43,881 bases of DNA from Lacinutrix sp. (lineage in GTDB: Bacteria; Bacteroidota; Bacteroidia; Flavobacteriales; Flavobacteriaceae): positions 1 to 43,881 of the forward strand of contig NZ_JALZVX010000080.1 in NCBI RefSeq assembly GCF_023299985.1, in the 5' to 3' direction. The position numbers were made by a program, and so were the translations under genes. Positions 2,121 through 9,953 of this stretch are shown here, piece by piece. The notes under the pieces are model-generated. The model was not told the DNA's origin. It saw only the letters and a program-made list of their open reading frames with translations, and searched no databases. Position 1 is the first letter of the stretch, and every line of letters starts with the position of its first letter.

Positions 2121-2151
2121 TTTGTTTGTAGTTATTTGATTTCTATCTTTG
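2121..2151 (+). promoter_or_regulatory. Bacteroidetes-type promoter for the trp operon
   Basis: TTTG (2121-2124), 19 nt, TATCTTTG (2144-2151), fitting the -33 TTTG / -7 TAnnTTTG consensus. Confidence 0.65.
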
Positions 2152-2188
2152 ATTTTTATAATAATATTACCGCTTTCGCGGAAAAACT

Positions 2189-2248
2189 ATGAACAAAAAT
2201 TTAAATCATACTTGGTGGTGGAACTTTCGAAACACAATTCGTGAATAA
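2189..2248 (+). CDS. trpL: trp operon leader peptide MNKNLNHTWWWNFRNTIRE
   Basis: 20-codon ORF with three consecutive TGG codons between the trp promoter and an intrinsic terminator upstream of trpE; too short for the ORF track. Confidence 0.88.
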   Translation: MNKNLNHTWWWNFRNTIRE

Positions 2249-2276
2249 ACTCTTAGTATATTTAATTAAAATATAA

Positions 2277-2308
2277 AAGGCTTGTCATTCACGACAAGCC
2301 TTTTTTTT
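2277..2308 (+). terminator. trp attenuator terminator
   Basis: AAAGGCTTGTC-ATTCAC-GACAAGCCTTTTTTTT perfect stem plus U tract, after trpL and before trpE. Confidence 0.88.
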
Positions 2309-2384
2309 ATTCTGAACTTGTTTTAGAATCTTTACATAAAATAACATCTCTACAATAAGAGACACTGAAATAAATTGAGCACTA

Positions 2385-3782
2385 ATGAAGACTTTTAGCC
2401 TTTACACAAATTATAAAAAAATACTAGCAGATACTATTACGCCTGTAAGCATCTATTTGAAAATTCGCGATAAATTCCCGAATAGCATCTTATTAGAAAG
2501 TAGCGATTATCATGCAAACGATAATAGTTTCTCGTATATCTGCTTTAATCCTATTGCTTCTATTAAAGTTTCTGGAGATACAATCGAGCAAACATTTCCA
2601 GATGGAAGCTCTCATAGAAACCGCACCAAAGATGTACCAAAAATGATTCACAAGTTTACTAAGCGTTTTAAAGTAAACTCAGAAAAAGATTTCAAATTTA
2701 TAAATAATGGGATTTTTGGTTACACATCTTACGATGCTGTAAAGTATTTTGAAGATATTGACATTTCAAAAAAACCAAATTCTTTAGACATTCCAGATAT
2801 ATATTATGCAGTCTATCAAAATATTATAGCTATTAATCACTTTAAAAATGAAGCTTATATTTTTGCTCATTGCTTTAATGATAATGCCAGTAATATCGAC
2901 GAGATTCTACATTTAATAAGATCAAATAATTTTGCTTCATATCAATTTTCTACAGATTCTGATATTGATTCTAATTTAACAGACAATGAATATAAAGAAC
3001 ATGTAGAATTAGCAAAACAGCACTGTGCAAGAGGTGATGTTTTTCAACTGGTACTCTCTAAAAAGTTTTCTCAAAAATTTAAAGGAGACGAGTTTAATGT
3101 CTATCGTGCTTTACGTAGCATTAATCCTTCACCTTACTTATTTTATTTTGATTATGGTGATTTTAAAATCTTTGGTAGTTCTCCTGAAGCACAATTAGTG
3201 GTTAACGAAGGTATTGCTGAAATTCATCCTATTGCTGGAACTTTTAAGCGTACAGGAAACGACGAAAAAGATGCAGAACTAGCAAAACAATTAGCAAGAG
3301 ACGAAAAAGAAAATGCAGAGCATGTAATGTTAGTAGATTTAGCTAGAAACGATTTAAGCAGACATGGAAGCCAAGTAAAAGTAGAAACCTATAGGGAAGC
3401 ACAATTTTTCTCGCATGTTATACATTTAGTAAGCAAAGTAACTGGAAAAATACATGACAACACTCCTACAATGCAAGTTGTAGCAGACACATTTCCTGCA
3501 GGAACTTTAAGTGGTGCACCAAAACATAAGGCTATGCAACTTATAGAAAAATACGAAAAAACAAGCCGTGCTTTTTATGGAGGAGCAATAGGTTTTATGG
3601 ATTTTAGTGGTAACTATAATCATGCGATTATGATTAGAACATTCCTAAGTAAAAACCATGAATTGCATTGGCAAGCTGGAGCTGGATTAGTATCAAAATC
3701 TAATCCTGAAAACGAATTACAAGAAGTTTACAATAAATTAGGAGCATTAACAAAGGCTATCGAACTAGCTAAAGATATATGA
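2385..3782 (+). CDS. trpE: anthranilate synthase component I
   Basis: chorismate-binding motifs (SPEAQLV, HPIAGTFKRTG, DLARNDLSRHG, TFPAGTLSGAPK). Confidence 0.96.
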   Translation: MKTFSLYTNYKKILADTITPVSIYLKIRDKFPNSILLESSDYHANDNSFSYICFNPIASIKVSGDTIEQTFPDGSSHRNRTKDVPKMIHKFTKRFKVNSEKDFKFINNGIFGYTSYDAVKYFEDIDISKKPNSLDIPDIYYAVYQNIIAINHFKNEAYIFAHCFNDNASNIDEILHLIRSNNFASYQFSTDSDIDSNLTDNEYKEHVELAKQHCARGDVFQLVLSKKFSQKFKGDEFNVYRALRSINPSPYLFYFDYGDFKIFGSSPEAQLVVNEGIAEIHPIAGTFKRTGNDEKDAELAKQLARDEKENAEHVMLVDLARNDLSRHGSQVKVETYREAQFFSHVIHLVSKVTGKIHDNTPTMQVVADTFPAGTLSGAPKHKAMQLIEKYEKTSRAFYGGAIGFMDFSGNYNHAIMIRTFLSKNHELHWQAGAGLVSKSNPENELQEVYNKLGALTKAIELAKDI

Positions 3783-3796
3783 AGTTAGTATTTAGT

Positions 3797-4024
3797 AAAA
3801 ATTAAAAAAATAGGACGAAACACTAATTTTATAAAAATGTAAGTCCTTAAAATCAATTCATAAAATTGAATATCAAAAATTAAGAAATAATAAGCGGAGG
3901 AATGGAGATGCAAAGCGAAGCTTTAAGCACGTAATTCCGAAAGCAAATGGTGCTTTAGCAATTTCCTAAGTTTGATCGTGATTTTTTGGTTCGTTTTTCA
4001 TCAAGGAAAAATGATCGGAAAGAA
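3797..4024 (+). repeat. dispersed intergenic repeat, copy 1 (trpE-trpG gap)
   Basis: long near-identical match to 4652-4880; ends with GATTTTTTGGTTCGTTTTTCATCAAGGAAAAATGA block also found at 9067-9102. Confidence 0.85.
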
Positions 4025-4052
4025 CGAAAGAAAGAACGTTTAATTAATAAGA

Positions 4053-4070
4053 TTCCCATTTACATGGGAA
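4053..4070 (+). promoter_or_regulatory. start-proximal hairpin of trpG
   Basis: TTCCCAT-TTAC-ATGGGAA, 6 nt upstream of ATG at 4077. Confidence 0.6.
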
Positions 4071-4076
4071 ATAAAC

Positions 4077-4640
4077 ATGAAAGTATTAGTAATAGACAAC
4101 TACGACAGTTTTACTTACAACTTAGTACATTATTTAGAAGATTTAAATTGTGATGTAACCGTAAAACGAAACGATAAATTAACTTTAGAAGAAGTTGATG
4201 CTTTCGAGAAAATAGTACTATCTCCTGGACCAGGTATTCCAGACGAAGCTGGACTATTAAAAGCCATTATTAAGCAGTATGCACCAACAAAAAGCATTCT
4301 TGGTGTTTGTCTAGGTCAACAAGCTATTGGTGAAGTTTTTGGTGGAAAATTAATAAACTTAGACACTGTTTTTCATGGTGTAGCAACCAAAGTAAATATT
4401 ACTGTTAATGACGAAGCCTTATTTAATAATATGAACAAAACAATAGAAGTTGGCCGATACCACTCTTGGGTTGTAGATCCTAATTTACCTGAGCAATTAG
4501 AAGCCACTTCTTTTGATGAAAACGAACAAGTTATGTCTCTAAGACATAAAGTTTACGATGTAAGAGGCGTACAATACCATCCTGAAAGTGTGTTAACGCC
4601 TAATGGAAAACAAATTTTAGAAAACTGGATTAAAAATTAG
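4077..4640 (+). CDS. trpG: anthranilate synthase component II (glutamine amidotransferase)
   Basis: DNYDSFTYNLVHYL, LSPGPGIPDEAG, GVCLGQQAIGE, QYHPESVLTPNG. Confidence 0.96.
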   Translation: MKVLVIDNYDSFTYNLVHYLEDLNCDVTVKRNDKLTLEEVDAFEKIVLSPGPGIPDEAGLLKAIIKQYAPTKSILGVCLGQQAIGEVFGGKLINLDTVFHGVATKVNITVNDEALFNNMNKTIEVGRYHSWVVDPNLPEQLEATSFDENEQVMSLRHKVYDVRGVQYHPESVLTPNGKQILENWIKN

Positions 4641-4651
4641 CTAGCAATTAG

Positions 4652-4880
4652 CAAAAATTAAAAAAAACATAACGAAACACTAATTTTATAAAAATGAAAA
4701 TCCTTAAAATCAATTCATAGAATTGAATATCAAAAATTAAGAAATAATAAGCGTAGGAATGGAGATGCAAAGCGAAGCTTTAAGCATGTAATTCCGAAAG
4801 CGAATGGTGCTTTAGCAATTTCCTAAGTTTGATTGTAATTTTTTGGTTCGTTTTTCATCAAGGAAAAATGAACAGAAAGA
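4652..4880 (+). repeat. dispersed intergenic repeat, copy 2 (trpG-trpD gap)
   Basis: direct-repeat partner of 3797-4024, only scattered substitutions by eye. Confidence 0.85.
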
Positions 4881-4916
4881 ATTACATTAAGAAAAAAAGA
4901 AGTATAACTTAAAAGA

Positions 4917-4934
4917 TTCCCATTGTCATGGGAA
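4917..4934 (+). promoter_or_regulatory. start-proximal hairpin of trpD
   Basis: TTCCCAT-TGTC-ATGGGAA, 6 nt upstream of ATG at 4941. Confidence 0.6.
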
Positions 4935-4940
4935 GTAAAT

Positions 4941-5933
4941 ATGAAACAAATACTAAATAGATTAATAAACCACGAAAACATCTCAAGCGAAGAAGCAAGA
5001 AATGTTTTGATAAATATTTCCGAAGGAAAATATAACCTAAGCCAAATAGCATCATTTCTAACTGTTTTTATGATGCGCAGTATCACCTTAGAAGAACTTC
5101 AAGGTTTTCGTGATGCACTTTTAGAGTTATGTATTCCTATAAATTTATCAGACTTTAACGCTATTGATTTATGTGGCACTGGAGGAGATGGCAAAGACAC
5201 ATTTAACATTTCGACCTTATCGTCTTTTGTAACTGCTGGTGCAGGAATAAAAGTTGCTAAACATGGTAATTATGGAGTATCTTCTGCTTCTGGATCTTCA
5301 AATGTTATGGAGGCTTTGGGTATTCACTTTTCTAATAAATCAGACTTTTTAAAATACGCCATAGATCAAGCTGGAATATGTGTGTTACATGCACCATTAT
5401 TTCATCCTGCTATGAAACATGTTGCTCCTATTCGTAAAGAACTAGGTATTAAAACCTTTTTCAATATGCTAGGTCCAATGGTAAATCCAGCATTTCCAAA
5501 AAACCAGATGGTTGGCGTATTTAACTTAGAACTACAAAGATTGTATGGTTATTTATACCAAAATACAGATAAAAATTACAGCATAGTTCATGCATTAGAT
5601 GGTTATGATGAAATTTCTCTAACAGGAAAAACTAAGATTATTTCTAACCGTTCTGAAACAATATTAAAACCTTCAGATTTAAATGTTCAACAAATAGAGC
5701 AATCAGATATTTTTGGTGGTTCATCTGTAAAAGAAGCTGCTAAAATTTTCAAAAATATTATTGAAGGCAAAGGAACAGAAGCTCAAAACAACGTTGTTTA
5801 TGCCAATGCAGGATTAGCAATAGCGACAGTAAATAACACTTCGCATATAGAAGGATTTAATTTAGCAAAAGAAAGTTTAGAAAGCGGAAGAGCAAAAGAA
5901 AGTTTAGAACGATTAATAGAATTGAGTAAATAA
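4941..5933 (+). CDS. trpD: anthranilate phosphoribosyltransferase (start corrected from 4923)
   Basis: CGTGGDGKDTFNISTLSSFV, KHGNYGVSSASGSSNVMEALG; the upstream MSWEVN extension lies across the hairpin. Confidence 0.95.
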   Translation: MKQILNRLINHENISSEEARNVLINISEGKYNLSQIASFLTVFMMRSITLEELQGFRDALLELCIPINLSDFNAIDLCGTGGDGKDTFNISTLSSFVTAGAGIKVAKHGNYGVSSASGSSNVMEALGIHFSNKSDFLKYAIDQAGICVLHAPLFHPAMKHVAPIRKELGIKTFFNMLGPMVNPAFPKNQMVGVFNLELQRLYGYLYQNTDKNYSIVHALDGYDEISLTGKTKIISNRSETILKPSDLNVQQIEQSDIFGGSSVKEAAKIFKNIIEGKGTEAQNNVVYANAGLAIATVNNTSHIEGFNLAKESLESGRAKESLERLIELSK

Positions 5934-5941
5934 AAAAGTCG

Positions 5942-5968
5942 ACAGTATTCAGTAAACAGTCTTCAGTA
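5942..5968 (+). repeat. degenerate tandem ACAGTATTCAGTA / ACAGTCTTCAGTA in trpD-trpC gap
   Basis: two 13-nt units differing at one position. Confidence 0.6.
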
Positions 5969-6012
5969 TTTATTCAAACTGTTACTGAAAGCTGCTAACC
6001 GAAGATTAAAAC

Positions 6013-6798
6013 ATGGATATTTTAACCAAAATAGTAAACGATAAACGCATCGAAGTTAACCTTCGCAAGCAACTCATTCCTACAAAACAACTAGAGCAAT
6101 CTATTTTGTTTGAAAGAGAAACAGTTTCTTTAGCTAATAAATTAAAAAACAGTACAACAGGAATTATTGCAGAACACAAACGTCGTTCTCCCTCAAAACA
6201 AGTTATCAATCACGATCTAAATGTTTTTGATGTTGCCAAAGGTTATGAAGAAGCTGGAGTTTGCGGCATGTCTGTTTTAACAGATGGCAAATATTTTGGT
6301 GGCTCTCTGGACGACTTACTTACTGCGCGATCAAGCTGTAATTTACCTTTATTACGCAAAGAATTTATAATAGACCAATACCAGATAATAGAAGCTAAAG
6401 CTTATGGAGCTGATGTTATTTTATTAATAGCTGCAATACTAACTAAAGCCGAAATAAAGCAGTTTTCAGAATTAGCAAAAAGTTTAAATTTAGAGGTGCT
6501 TTTAGAAATCCATAATGAAGAAGAGTTAAACAAATCAATAATGCCTAGCTTAGATATGCTTGGTGTAAATAATAGAAATTTAAAAACGTTTGAAGTAAGT
6601 TTAGAAACCAGCAAACAGCTAAGCTCATTAATTCCAAACGATTTTGTAAAAGTATCTGAAAGTGGAATTAGTAATATTGAAGCTATCAAAACATTAAAAC
6701 CTTATGGTTATAAAGGCTTTTTAATAGGTGAAAATTTCATGAAAACAGATAATGCTGGAAAAAGCGCAAAACAATTTATTGAAAGATTAAATAATTAA
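6013..6798 (+). CDS. trpC: indole-3-glycerol phosphate synthase
   Basis: IIAEHKRRSPSK, LLRKEFIIDQYQI, LGVNNRNLKTFEV, VSESGISN. Confidence 0.96.
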   Translation: MDILTKIVNDKRIEVNLRKQLIPTKQLEQSILFERETVSLANKLKNSTTGIIAEHKRRSPSKQVINHDLNVFDVAKGYEEAGVCGMSVLTDGKYFGGSLDDLLTARSSCNLPLLRKEFIIDQYQIIEAKAYGADVILLIAAILTKAEIKQFSELAKSLNLEVLLEIHNEEELNKSIMPSLDMLGVNNRNLKTFEVSLETSKQLSSLIPNDFVKVSESGISNIEAIKTLKPYGYKGFLIGENFMKTDNAGKSAKQFIERLNN

Positions 6799-6807
6799 AA
6801 ATAACTT

Positions 6808-6909
6808 TGTCACTTCGAGTGGTTTTTGAGGTATGAAAAAATTGTATCGAGAAGTCTCTAAAACTTCTCGATACAATTTCAAAAAAACTAAAATCACTCG
6901 AACTGACAG
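6808..6909. repeat. REP/MITE-like palindromic element A (trpC-trpF gap)
   Basis: outer TTGTCACTTCGAGTG...CACTCGAACTGACAG plus inner 16-bp stem AATTGTATCGAGAAGT/ACTTCTCGATACAATT; same ends as 11256-11350. Confidence 0.85.
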
Positions 6910-6922
6910 CAATTAAAACACT

Positions 6923-7561
6923 ATGAAACTAAAAATATGCGGAATGAAAAATGAAAACAACATCCTTGATGTTGCTGAACTTAAGCCAAGTTATATGGGT
7001 TTCATTTTTTACGAAAAATCACCACGTTACTTCAATGGCGTAATTCCTGAAATCTCTAAAGACATTAATAAAATTGGAGTCTTTGTAAATGCTACTTTCG
7101 ATTATATAAGAGGCAAAGTGGAAAAACACGATTTACAAGGCGTACAATTACATGGTGAAGAATCTCCAGAATTATGCGAGCGATTAAAAGCATTAGAGCT
7201 TACCGTTATAAAAGTGTTTTCTATTAAAAACCAGTTCAATTTTAAAGTTCTAGAACCTTTTGAAGACGTTTGCGACTATTATTTGTTCGATACTAAAGGC
7301 AAAGAACCTGGTGGAAACGGTTATACTTTTAACTGGAACGTTTTAAAAAAATACCCATCCATTAAACCTTACTTTTTAAGTGGTGGTATTGGTCCAAAAG
7401 AGATGGATTCAATATTACTATTCTTAAAGAGACCAGAATCACAACTGTGCTGCACATTAGACCTAAACAGCAAGTTTGAAACCGCTTCTAAAGTAAAAGA
7501 CACAGCAAAAATTAAAGCATTTAAACAAGTACTTATAGACAAAAATTATTACTATGTATAA
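6923..7561 (+). CDS. trpF: phosphoribosylanthranilate isomerase
   Basis: [56 protein letters not shown]. Confidence 0.95.
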
Positions 7562-8732
7562 TATTAATGATAAAGGCTATTATGGCGAATTTGGAGGAGC
7601 ATACATTCCAGAAATGCTTTATCCTAATGTAGAGGAGTTACGTCAAAATTATCTAAAAATAATGGCAGAACCTTCGTTTAAGGAAGAGTTCGATCAATTA
7701 TTAAAAGATTACGTTGGACGTCCTTCTCCACTTTATTTAGCTAAAAGATTAAGTGAAAAATATAATACAAAAATCTACTTAAAACGAGAAGATTTAAACC
7801 ATACAGGAGCACATAAAATCAACAATACTATTGGCCAAATTTTAATGGCACAACGCTTAGGTAAAAAACGCATTATTGCCGAAACTGGTGCTGGACAACA
7901 TGGTGTTGCAACTGCAACCGTTTGCGCATTAATGGGAATGGAGTGTATTGTTTATATGGGAGAAATTGATATTGCTCGTCAAGCTCCAAACGTTGCTAGA
8001 ATGAAAATGTTAGGCGCTAAAGTTTTACCTGCATTATCTGGAAGTCGTACATTAAAAGATGCAACAAACGAAGCTATTAGAGATTGGATTAATAATCCTG
8101 TAAACACACATTATATTATAGGTAGTGTGGTTGGACCACATCCATATCCAGATATGGTTGCGCGTTTTCAAGCTGTAGTATCAGAGGAAATACAATGGCA
8201 ACTACAAGAAAAAGAAGGCAAAAGCACACCAGATTATGTAGTAGCTTGTGTTGGTGGAGGAAGTAATGCAGCTGGTGCTTTTTATCATTATTTAGAAAAC
8301 ACAGATGTTAAGCTAATTGCTGTTGAAGCAGCAGGAAAAGGAATCCATTCTGGAGAAAGCGCAGCAACTTCTATACTAGGAAAAGAAGGGATTATTCATG
8401 GTAGCAAAACATTACTAATGCAAACAGACGATGGGCAAATTACTGAGCCTTACTCGATTTCTGCTGGATTAGATTATCCAGGTGTTGGACCAATGCATGC
8501 ACACTTATATAAAACTGGACGTGCAGAATTCATATCCATTACAGATGATGAGGCAATGACTGCTGGTTTAGAATTAAGCCAATTAGAAGGTATTATTCCT
8601 GCTATTGAAACGGCTCATTCTTTAGCAATTTTTGATCATAAAAAATTTAAAGAAGACGACGTTGTCGTTATAAATTTATCTGGTCGTGGTGATAAAGATT
8701 TACAGAATTATATTGATTATTTTAAATTATAA
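7554..8732 (+). CDS. trpB: tryptophan synthase beta chain
   Basis: [41 protein letters not shown]; overlaps trpF by 8 nt. Confidence 0.97.
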
Positions 8733-8920
8733 TCTTTTTTAGGCGTTACAATAAATGGTCAGGCTTACAAACCTCGGTATCAAAGATGAGCTCAAACAAA
8801 CCTTTTAACTACGAAGTAATCACGATTTCTTCCAAAATAAAAATGAATGAGTAATCTTTAATGCAGTAAACGAAAATTAAAAAACTGAGGTTAAAAAACC
8901 ATAATAAGTAAAAGAATCTC

Positions 8921-9105
8921 TAAATCAATTCGCAGAATTGAACGTCAAGGCGAAGAATAGACGAAGAAAAGCTCCGAAAACAGAAGTTCAGACATTTTTA
9001 GTCTGGACGACGCGGAGTTTTCAAATCGGTTTTCAGTTTTTACTGAAAAATTCCTTGACTTGGCCGTGATTTTTTGGTTCGTTTTTCATCAAGGAAAAAT
9101 GAACG
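8921..9105 (+). repeat. dispersed intergenic repeat, copy 3 (trpB-trpA gap), shared ends with divergent core
   Basis: AATCAATTCGCAGAATTGAA at the left and GTGATTTTTTGGTTCGTTTTTCATCAAGGAAAAATGA at the right match copies 1 and 2; core differs and carries its own inverted repeats. Confidence 0.75.
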
Positions 9106-9164
9106 TGAATAAAAACATGGATTTCTGTACAAGTAAAAACAAAATTTAAGTTTAATTAATAAGA

Positions 9165-9182
9165 TTCTCATTTTCGTGAGAA
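9165..9182 (+). promoter_or_regulatory. start-proximal hairpin of trpA
   Basis: TTCTCAT-TTTC-GTGAGAA, 6 nt upstream of ATG at 9189; C-G to T-A compensatory change versus trpG/trpD copies. Confidence 0.6.
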
Positions 9183-9188
9183 ATGAAT

Positions 9189-9953
9189 ATGAACAGAATA
9201 AACCAAAAATTAAAAGAAAAGAAAAAGCTTCTTAGCATATATTTTTCAGCAGGATATCCAAGTTTAAACGACACCGTTTCAATAATAGAAAACCTAGAAA
9301 AAAACGGAGTTGACATAATTGAAATAGGCTTACCATTTAGCGATCCATTAGCAGATGGACCAACAATACAAGCTAGTTCTACCGAAGCTCTAAAAAACGG
9401 AATGACAACCGACGTGCTGTTTAACCAACTAAAAGACATCAGGAAAACAGTTTCTATTCCGTTAATTATCATGGGTTATTTTAATCCTATGTTACAATAT
9501 GGAGTGGAAGACTTTTGCAAAAGATGTCAAGATATTGGTGTTGATGGCTTGATTATTCCAGATTTACCTGTAGATGTTTATAACGACCAATACAAAGCAA
9601 TTTTCGAAAAACACGGATTAATAAATGTGCTTTTAATTACACCACAAACAAGTGTTGAGCGTATTAATTTTATAGATTCCATTTCTACCGGATTTATATA
9701 CATGGTAAGTAGCGCAAGTGTAACAGGAAGCAATTCTGGTTTTGGAGAAGAACAAACTGAATATTTTAAACGTATTGCAGACATGAAATTAAAAAACCCA
9801 CAAATTGTTGGTTTTGGAATTAGTGATAACGAAACATTTAGTCAAGCCACTGCACGTGCAAAAGGTGCAATTATTGGTTCTGCATTTATTAAACATTTAA
9901 CCAAAAATGGTGTTAATAAAATTGATGCTTTTGTAAATTCAATACTAAAATAA
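9189..9953 (+). CDS. trpA: tryptophan synthase alpha chain (track start 9183; 9189 preferred)
   Basis: YFSAGYPSLNDT, IEIGLPFSDPLADGPTIQ, IPDLPVDVY, VSSASVTGS. Confidence 0.95.
   Translation: MNRINQKLKEKKKLLSIYFSAGYPSLNDTVSIIENLEKNGVDIIEIGLPFSDPLADGPTIQASSTEALKNGMTTDVLFNQLKDIRKTVSIPLIIMGYFNPMLQYGVEDFCKRCQDIGVDGLIIPDLPVDVYNDQYKAIFEKHGLINVLLITPQTSVERINFIDSISTGFIYMVSSASVTGSNSGFGEEQTEYFKRIADMKLKNPQIVGFGISDNETFSQATARAKGAIIGSAFIKHLTKNGVNKIDAFVNSILK

Follow-up and report, generated by a model that had tools for sequence, protein, structure and literature searches.

In the trp leader of E. coli, the 5′ arm of the terminator constitutes region 3 and is the pairing partner of region 2. The trp attenuators of Corynebacterium and Streptomyces comprise a leader peptide with double or triple UGG codons, a terminator and an antiterminator, the latter two sharing complementary triples (gGCC-rGCy-GGCC) analogous to those in proteobacteria (PMC1262725). 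For Bacteroidota, the Bacteroid-trp motif appears in Table 1 of Weinberg et al. 2010 (PMC2864571). Such an element is located upstream of the trp operon in Flavobacterium psychrophilum, where its likeness to the E. coli leader was discussed (PMC6414381). A transcriptome study of this species reported strong hints of attenuation by leader peptides in front of amino-acid operons, together with a structured 5′ element at hisG (PMC9723704).

The leader analysed here lies in a stretch of 43,881 nucleotides from Lacinutrix sp., called the window in the following. It is matched by the Rfam model RF01692 (Bacteroid-trp) with 57.1 bits against a gathering score of 49, once in the genome. At the gathering threshold this is the sole Rfam match at the locus, and neither a T-box nor another riboswitch was matched. 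The leader had been called unannotated in a sequence-only reading that preceded this study; this has to be withdrawn, since the match exceeds the threshold and the family was published in 2010. Model and locus have the genomic position, a leader ORF with UGG codons and the terminator 5′ arm GGCUUGUC in common. However, the model contains no antiterminator and lacks the pairing with loop and 3′ arm described below, although the supplement of Weinberg et al. 2010 may draw one. In the literature since 2010, covered with few subscription papers, we found no antiterminator assigned to RF01692, and an earlier description is possible. We consider it likely that the locus is a ribosome-mediated trp attenuator of the Bacteroid-trp family with an antiterminator specific for Flavobacteriaceae.

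Table 1. Positions of the trp leader elements and of the downstream operon in the window
Feature	Position	Strand	Details
Bacteroidota sigma-A promoter	2121-2151	+	TTTG 2121-2124, 19-nt spacer, TATCTTTG 2144-2151 (TAnnTTTG box)
RF01692 match	2169-2286	+	Model ends at terminator 5′ arm
Small perfect hairpin	2170-2181	+	CCGC-TTTC-GCGG, leader 5′ UTR, between promoter and ATG; predicted fold
trp leader peptide ORF	2189-2248	+	MNKNLNHTWWWNFRNTIRE, 19 codons; ATG 2189, stop TAA 2246-2248
Trp control codons	2213-2221	+	Three in tandem, TGG TGG TGG; from the sequence
Candidate region 1	2225-2233	+	TTTCGAAAC; CGAA 2228-2231 can pair with TTCG 2238-2241, sequestering region 2
Region 2, putative antiterminator 5′ strand	2239-2246	+	TCGTGAAT; overlaps the end of the leader ORF and the first base of its stop codon
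Intrinsic terminator hairpin	2275-2304	+	Arms 2275-2286 and 2293-2304, 12 pairs; loop ATTCAC 2287-2292
Region 3, putative antiterminator 3′ strand	2287-2294	+	ATTCACGA; terminator loop and first 2 nt of the 3′ arm
trpE, first controlled gene	2385-3782	+	Pfam Chorismate_bind and Anth_synt_I_N
Remaining trp operon	4077-9953	+	trpG 4077-4640, trpD to 5933, trpC 6013-6798, trpF 6923-7561, trpB 7554-8732, trpA 9183-9953

Promoter, leader ORF and terminator upstream of trpE

The elements of the region 2121-2384 are collected in Table 1. Those that the sequence-only reading had named are present as described: the promoter-like TTTG-N19-TATCTTTG is present, the 19-aa ORF with three tandem TGG codons is exact in the sequence, and the 8-nt complementarity is correct base for base. 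The terminator hairpin with its U tract was borne out as well, except for its extent, which at 2275-2304 is slightly longer than the 2277-2303 given before.

Of 99 relatives, 98 have the TAnnTTTG box, placed at positions −12 to −5 in PMC9723704, 5′ of their leader, compared to 11.1 expected. Transcription of the leader would start at around position 2156. The gap between the box and the start codon of the leader ORF amounts to 37 nt in the window (region 2144-2189). In about one quarter of the relatives it is 4-5 nt, and in most of them it is below 23 nt to the chosen start codon, which implies nearly leaderless leader mRNAs. The small hairpin in the 5′ UTR is not conserved, a hairpin at that place being present in only 6 of 178 relatives.

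For the comparison, 199 trpE upstream regions from Flavobacteriaceae were picked without regard to the presence of a leader, 183 of them distinct. The family-level sample holds about one genome per genus, and loci at the genus level and from the nearest relatives are sampled more densely. Automatic recognition, demanding a leader ORF with WW or WWW together with a terminator, yielded 178 leaders, and manual inspection added two (L234, L240). A WW(W) leader ORF precedes nearly every trpE of the 183 distinct regions, and three Trp codons are present in 180 of 204 leaders. The leader RNA folds far below its dinucleotide shuffles (z −4.3).

Some loci deviate. The leader ORFs of L179, L085, L087, L107 and L053 have no ATG and apparently start with TTG or GTG, and their RNA elements are intact. 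Three strongly reduced genomes, L246 (1.6 Mb, G047) as well as L383 and L395 (about 0.6 Mb), have kept trpE with no Trp-codon leader ORF upstream of it; for L246, manual inspection of the trpE upstream region found no leader. The attenuator has apparently been lost in these genomes. In a genus mate of the Lacinutrix strain (L014/L015, G004:C1:1370374-1371764), trpE is split into two overlapping frames by a frameshift or an assembly error.

The window terminator has the sequence AAAAGGCTTGTC-ATTCAC-GACAAGCCTTTT and ends in a run of eight T (2301-2308), between the leader ORF and trpE. Nearly all terminators of the family are variants of GGCTTGTC-loop-GACAAGCC. Among 101 sequences, compensatory changes were detected at 9 of 11 stem pairs and 96% of the cells are paired. 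A hairpin of this strength, accompanied by a terminator-like match on the minus strand, could also be a constitutive terminator that insulates trpE from upstream transcription and has no regulatory role. However, in essentially all relatives it is situated downstream of a conserved promoter and a Trp-rich leader ORF, and the neighbouring gene upstream of the leader is in the opposite orientation, pointing away, which makes mere insulation extremely improbable. The operon following the leader is a complete and intact trpEGDCFBA according to Pfam. Long gaps of about 280-450 nt are found between trpE and trpG (3783-4076), trpG and trpD (4641-4922), and trpB and trpA (8733-9182).

Complementarity between leader end and terminator apex

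In the window, TCGTGAAT is the exact reverse complement of ATTCACGA, which consists of the 6-nt terminator loop and 2 nt of the 3′ arm. By a rough estimate (about 46 positions × 4^-8), an exact 8-nt match in the leader tail of about 50 nt has a chance of about 1e-3. To compare relatives, we replaced RNAduplex energies against shuffles, which reached p ≤ 0.05 in 30% of cases, by a scan at fixed register; the energy test was too blunt because the apex of the terminator is palindromic and can pair with many sequences. In the scan, a hexamer of each terminator was slid round the apex and its exact complement was sought between the last TGG codon and the terminator of the same leader, with expectations taken from dinucleotide shuffles. 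The core hexamer, formed by the last four loop nucleotides and the first two of the 3′ arm, has a complement in its own leader in 149 of 178 cases against 10.9 expected, a count that overstates the independent evidence as the sequences are related. One step towards the loop the number falls to 93, and one step towards the 3′ arm to 34. The helix would comprise 7-9 bp in 128 of 148 leaders; most extend it beyond the core into the loop, others into the arm.

This register is difficult to reconcile with a textbook attenuator, in which region 2 would pair with the 5′ arm of the terminator and the complementarity to the loop would be incidental. Such an arrangement has precedents close by: among leaders from outside the Flavobacteriaceae, pairing with 5′ arm plus loop is above swapped controls (Fisher p 6e-5), and the hisG leaders of the same family end in a CTCAAGCG-like sequence, which by inspection resembles the 3′ arm of their terminator and would pair with the 5′ arm. 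In the Flavobacteriaceae trp leaders, however, none of the 5′-arm hexamers (registers −10 to −4) has a complement in any of the 178 leaders, fewer than in the shuffles, and the peak falls on the loop together with 2 nt of the 3′ arm. The scan thus rejects a 5′-arm antiterminator for these leaders (0/178), and we regard it as very unlikely for the window.

The leader strand of the pairing is represented by the hexamer TCGTGA in 157 of the 178 leaders. It is positioned 17-22 nt past the last TGG codon, in 149 of the 157 at 17-19 nt. All three reading frames are used (89/57/11), and relative to the stop codon the hexamer is overlapping in 70, preceding in 63 and located after an earlier stop in 24 of these leaders. 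The use of three frames, partly beyond the stop codon, indicates that the RNA rather than the peptide is conserved. Some leaders pair imperfectly (AAGTGA, TAGTGA), and L235 is a poor fit. As a whole, the module TCGTGA-N20-46-GGCYTGTC-loop-GACARGCC was found in 79 of 121 family genomes, with exactly one copy in each, and the reversed control in none; those matches that were compared with the trpE loci are immediately 5′ of trpE. The pattern was also found at G034:C56:19002-19060 and G102:C258:1428-1484, in two genomes in which no trpE was detected above the cut-off.

Covariation between the two strands is modest, because both hexamers are nearly invariant. In the columns of a MAFFT alignment, region 2 against region 3 gave 4 pairs and 8 double-change cells, values reached by 3 and 0 of 500 shuffles, respectively; the overall covariation score was not above the shuffles (116/500). 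Alignment columns under-report variants, as the alignment misplaces the element of L233, L239 and L240, and we therefore added a count in register, anchored on the hairpin and on the similarity to TCGTGA. Compensatory variants recognized in this way are TCGCAA/TTGCGA (L227) and TCGCGA/TCGCGA (L233). One divergent clade shows AAGTGA/TCAC against AAGCGA/TCGC, further cases tolerate G-U pairs, and CCGTGA/TCACGG was found in the leader L390, which belongs to a different family of the order. As independent compensatory cases are few, they support the pairing, but not overwhelmingly.

It could be argued that TCGTGA and the loop are each conserved separately, for example as the context of the stop codon, as a pause site of the polymerase or as a site for a protein, with no pairing between them; the near invariance of both motifs leaves most sequences with no information on covariation. 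We consider this unlikely, since TCGTGA is kept in three frames and outside of the ORF at a fixed distance from the Trp codons, the compensatory variants occur in separate lineages and in another family, and the reverse complement is exact with a sharply defined register. Most of the weight in support of the proposed pairing is carried by the sharp register, the spacing and the independence of the frame, and the compensatory cases come from a handful of lineages. From these comparisons, both parts of the sequence-only reading, trp attenuation and pairing of the leader-stop region with the loop and the apical end of the 3′ arm, appear to be conserved across Flavobacteriaceae; the antiterminator proposal withstands the comparison with relatives that this reading had named as a check.

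Proposed switching and possible role of region 1

The proposed switch works as follows. If charged tRNA-Trp is scarce, a ribosome would stall on the Trp codons (2213-2221), cover the RNA up to about 2230 and leave region 2 (2239-2246) free. The ATTCAC loop and the beginning of the 3′ arm would then pair with region 2 before this arm is complete. This antiterminator would block nucleation of the terminator beside its loop, and transcription would continue into trpE. If Trp is plentiful, a ribosome at the stop codon (2246-2248) would cover region 2 and the terminator would form, the masking being deduced from the positions. We infer the ribosome footprint, the folding order, the prevention of termination by the pairing and the dependence on Trp. 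Given the generally known size of the ribosome footprint, the spacing of 17-22 nt fits this logic: whichever Trp codon the ribosome stalls on, region 2 would be just beyond its edge, whereas a ribosome that has reached the stop codon would cover it.

In fold predictions with the RNA freed from position 2233, the antiterminator is the minimum-energy fold for 3′ ends from 2292 to 2298, and the terminator is better from 2299 onwards. For the complete RNA at equilibrium, the terminator reaches −19.5 kcal/mol and the antiterminator −11.8 kcal/mol, about 8 kcal/mol apart, which means that the antiterminator must act kinetically. For a ribosome at the stop codon, the prediction leaves the terminator as the only possible structure (−17.0 kcal/mol). 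A helix on the loop and the first 3′-arm bases leaves almost no linker, and we argue that the remaining terminator pairs could not close without strain. We regard it as somewhat more probable than not that the trp operons of Flavobacteriaceae use a loop-capture antiterminator, a helix of 6-9 bp that holds the terminator loop and the start of the 3′ arm while these emerge and so prevents nucleation at the loop; the block would be steric and kinetic, and the 5′ arm would not be lost to the terminator.

A further element may be present between the Trp codons and region 2. The sequence-only reading had set the short loop-nucleated antiterminator against the enterobacterial 1:2/2:3/3:4 arrangement and may have overlooked 1:2. 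In such a full scheme, region 1 past the Trp codons would sequester TCGTGA in the absence of a ribosome, with the loop pairing as 2:3. This can be compatible with the favoured explanation as an addition to it, with region 3 shifted onto loop and 3′ arm. In the window fold, the CGAA-TTCG pairing is part of a longer hairpin that contains the Trp codons. The dinucleotide CG is present in region 1 of 68 of 82 leaders compared to 20 of 82 in the downstream spacer, and a helix of at least 4 bp which contains this CG and involves the TCGTGA element is possible in 62 of 82. In L227, region 1 has changed together with regions 2 and 3 (ATTGCGA/TCGCAAT), in far leaders the 1:2 pairing is above swaps (p 0.0017), and RF01692 draws a hairpin at the place of 1:2. 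However, RNAalifold on 60 relatives gave no consensus pairs upstream of the terminator, the 1:2 pairing among near variants is not above swaps (p 0.16), the shuffle test of region 1 is weak, and the CG can be explained by a conserved Arg codon as well. On balance, a 1:2 protector hairpin in the window and in many relatives is possible and weakly suggested, and we hold the full scheme tentatively, at slightly less than an even chance. A connector hairpin between region 2 and the terminator (TATATTT/AAATATA in the window) was rejected, since across 82 relatives it scored no better than shuffles (mean z 0.01).

Comparison with other attenuators

In 39 trp leaders from other families of Bacteroidota, pairing between leader tail and terminator apex is also above swapped controls (Fisher p 2e-7). 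Here the signal comes from the 5′ arm and the loop, as in GAACAGC/GCTGTTC (L252, L253, L282) or GAGAAGC/GCTTCTC, and not from loop and 3′ arm (p 0.70). This contrast marks the loop/3′-arm geometry as characteristic of Flavobacteriaceae, with scattered similar cases in L257 and L390. Since the other families use 5′ arm and loop, with much the same spacing to the Trp codons, the loop-capture design may have arisen by sliding of the target round the hairpin apex.

Further leaders were seen upstream of other amino-acid genes; thrA loci, which ended short of the gene start, were left out. The hisG upstream regions of Flavobacteriaceae (L287-L316, e.g. L288, L295, L304) encode His-rich leader peptides with HHHH that end in ..QA[R/S/N/K], followed by a terminator CCCGTTTGA-loop-TCAAGCGGG, the 3′ arm of which resembles the leader end; by inspection, they look like textbook 5′-arm attenuation. 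In front of several ilvD genes (L317-L342, e.g. L320, L337, L341) there are leader ORFs rich in Ile/Val, together with a terminator of the CCTTCC or CCTGTATC type. These are candidate branched-chain attenuators, several of which, by inspection, look like the hisG arrangement. Both groups have runs of codons for the regulated amino acid and a terminator in common with the trp leader, whereas the element at the end of their leaders is similar to the 3′ arm, so that its partner would be the 5′ arm.

With our analyses, the Bacteroid-trp family gains a testable antiterminator assignment, and the switch would be covered more fully by an RF01692 model that runs through the terminator and includes the alternative pairing. 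Attenuators within one phylum would have moved the antiterminator target round the terminator apex. A kinetic helix of 7-8 bp competing with a 12-bp terminator also offers a clean test of whether a block of loop nucleation suffices against intrinsic termination.

The locus is a known Bacteroid-trp leader, and its geometry would be a variant of classic ribosome-mediated attenuation rather than a new mechanism. With the trp attenuators of Corynebacterium and Streptomyces it shares the UGG runs in the leader peptide, the terminator and an antiterminator, whereas the complementary triples are theirs. With the E. coli trp leader it has in common a short leader peptide that contains tandem Trp codons, an intrinsic terminator in front of trpE and, judged from the positions here, an alternative pairing governed by the ribosome, but in Lacinutrix sp. 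region 2 would pair over about 8 bp with the loop and the apical end of the 3′ arm.
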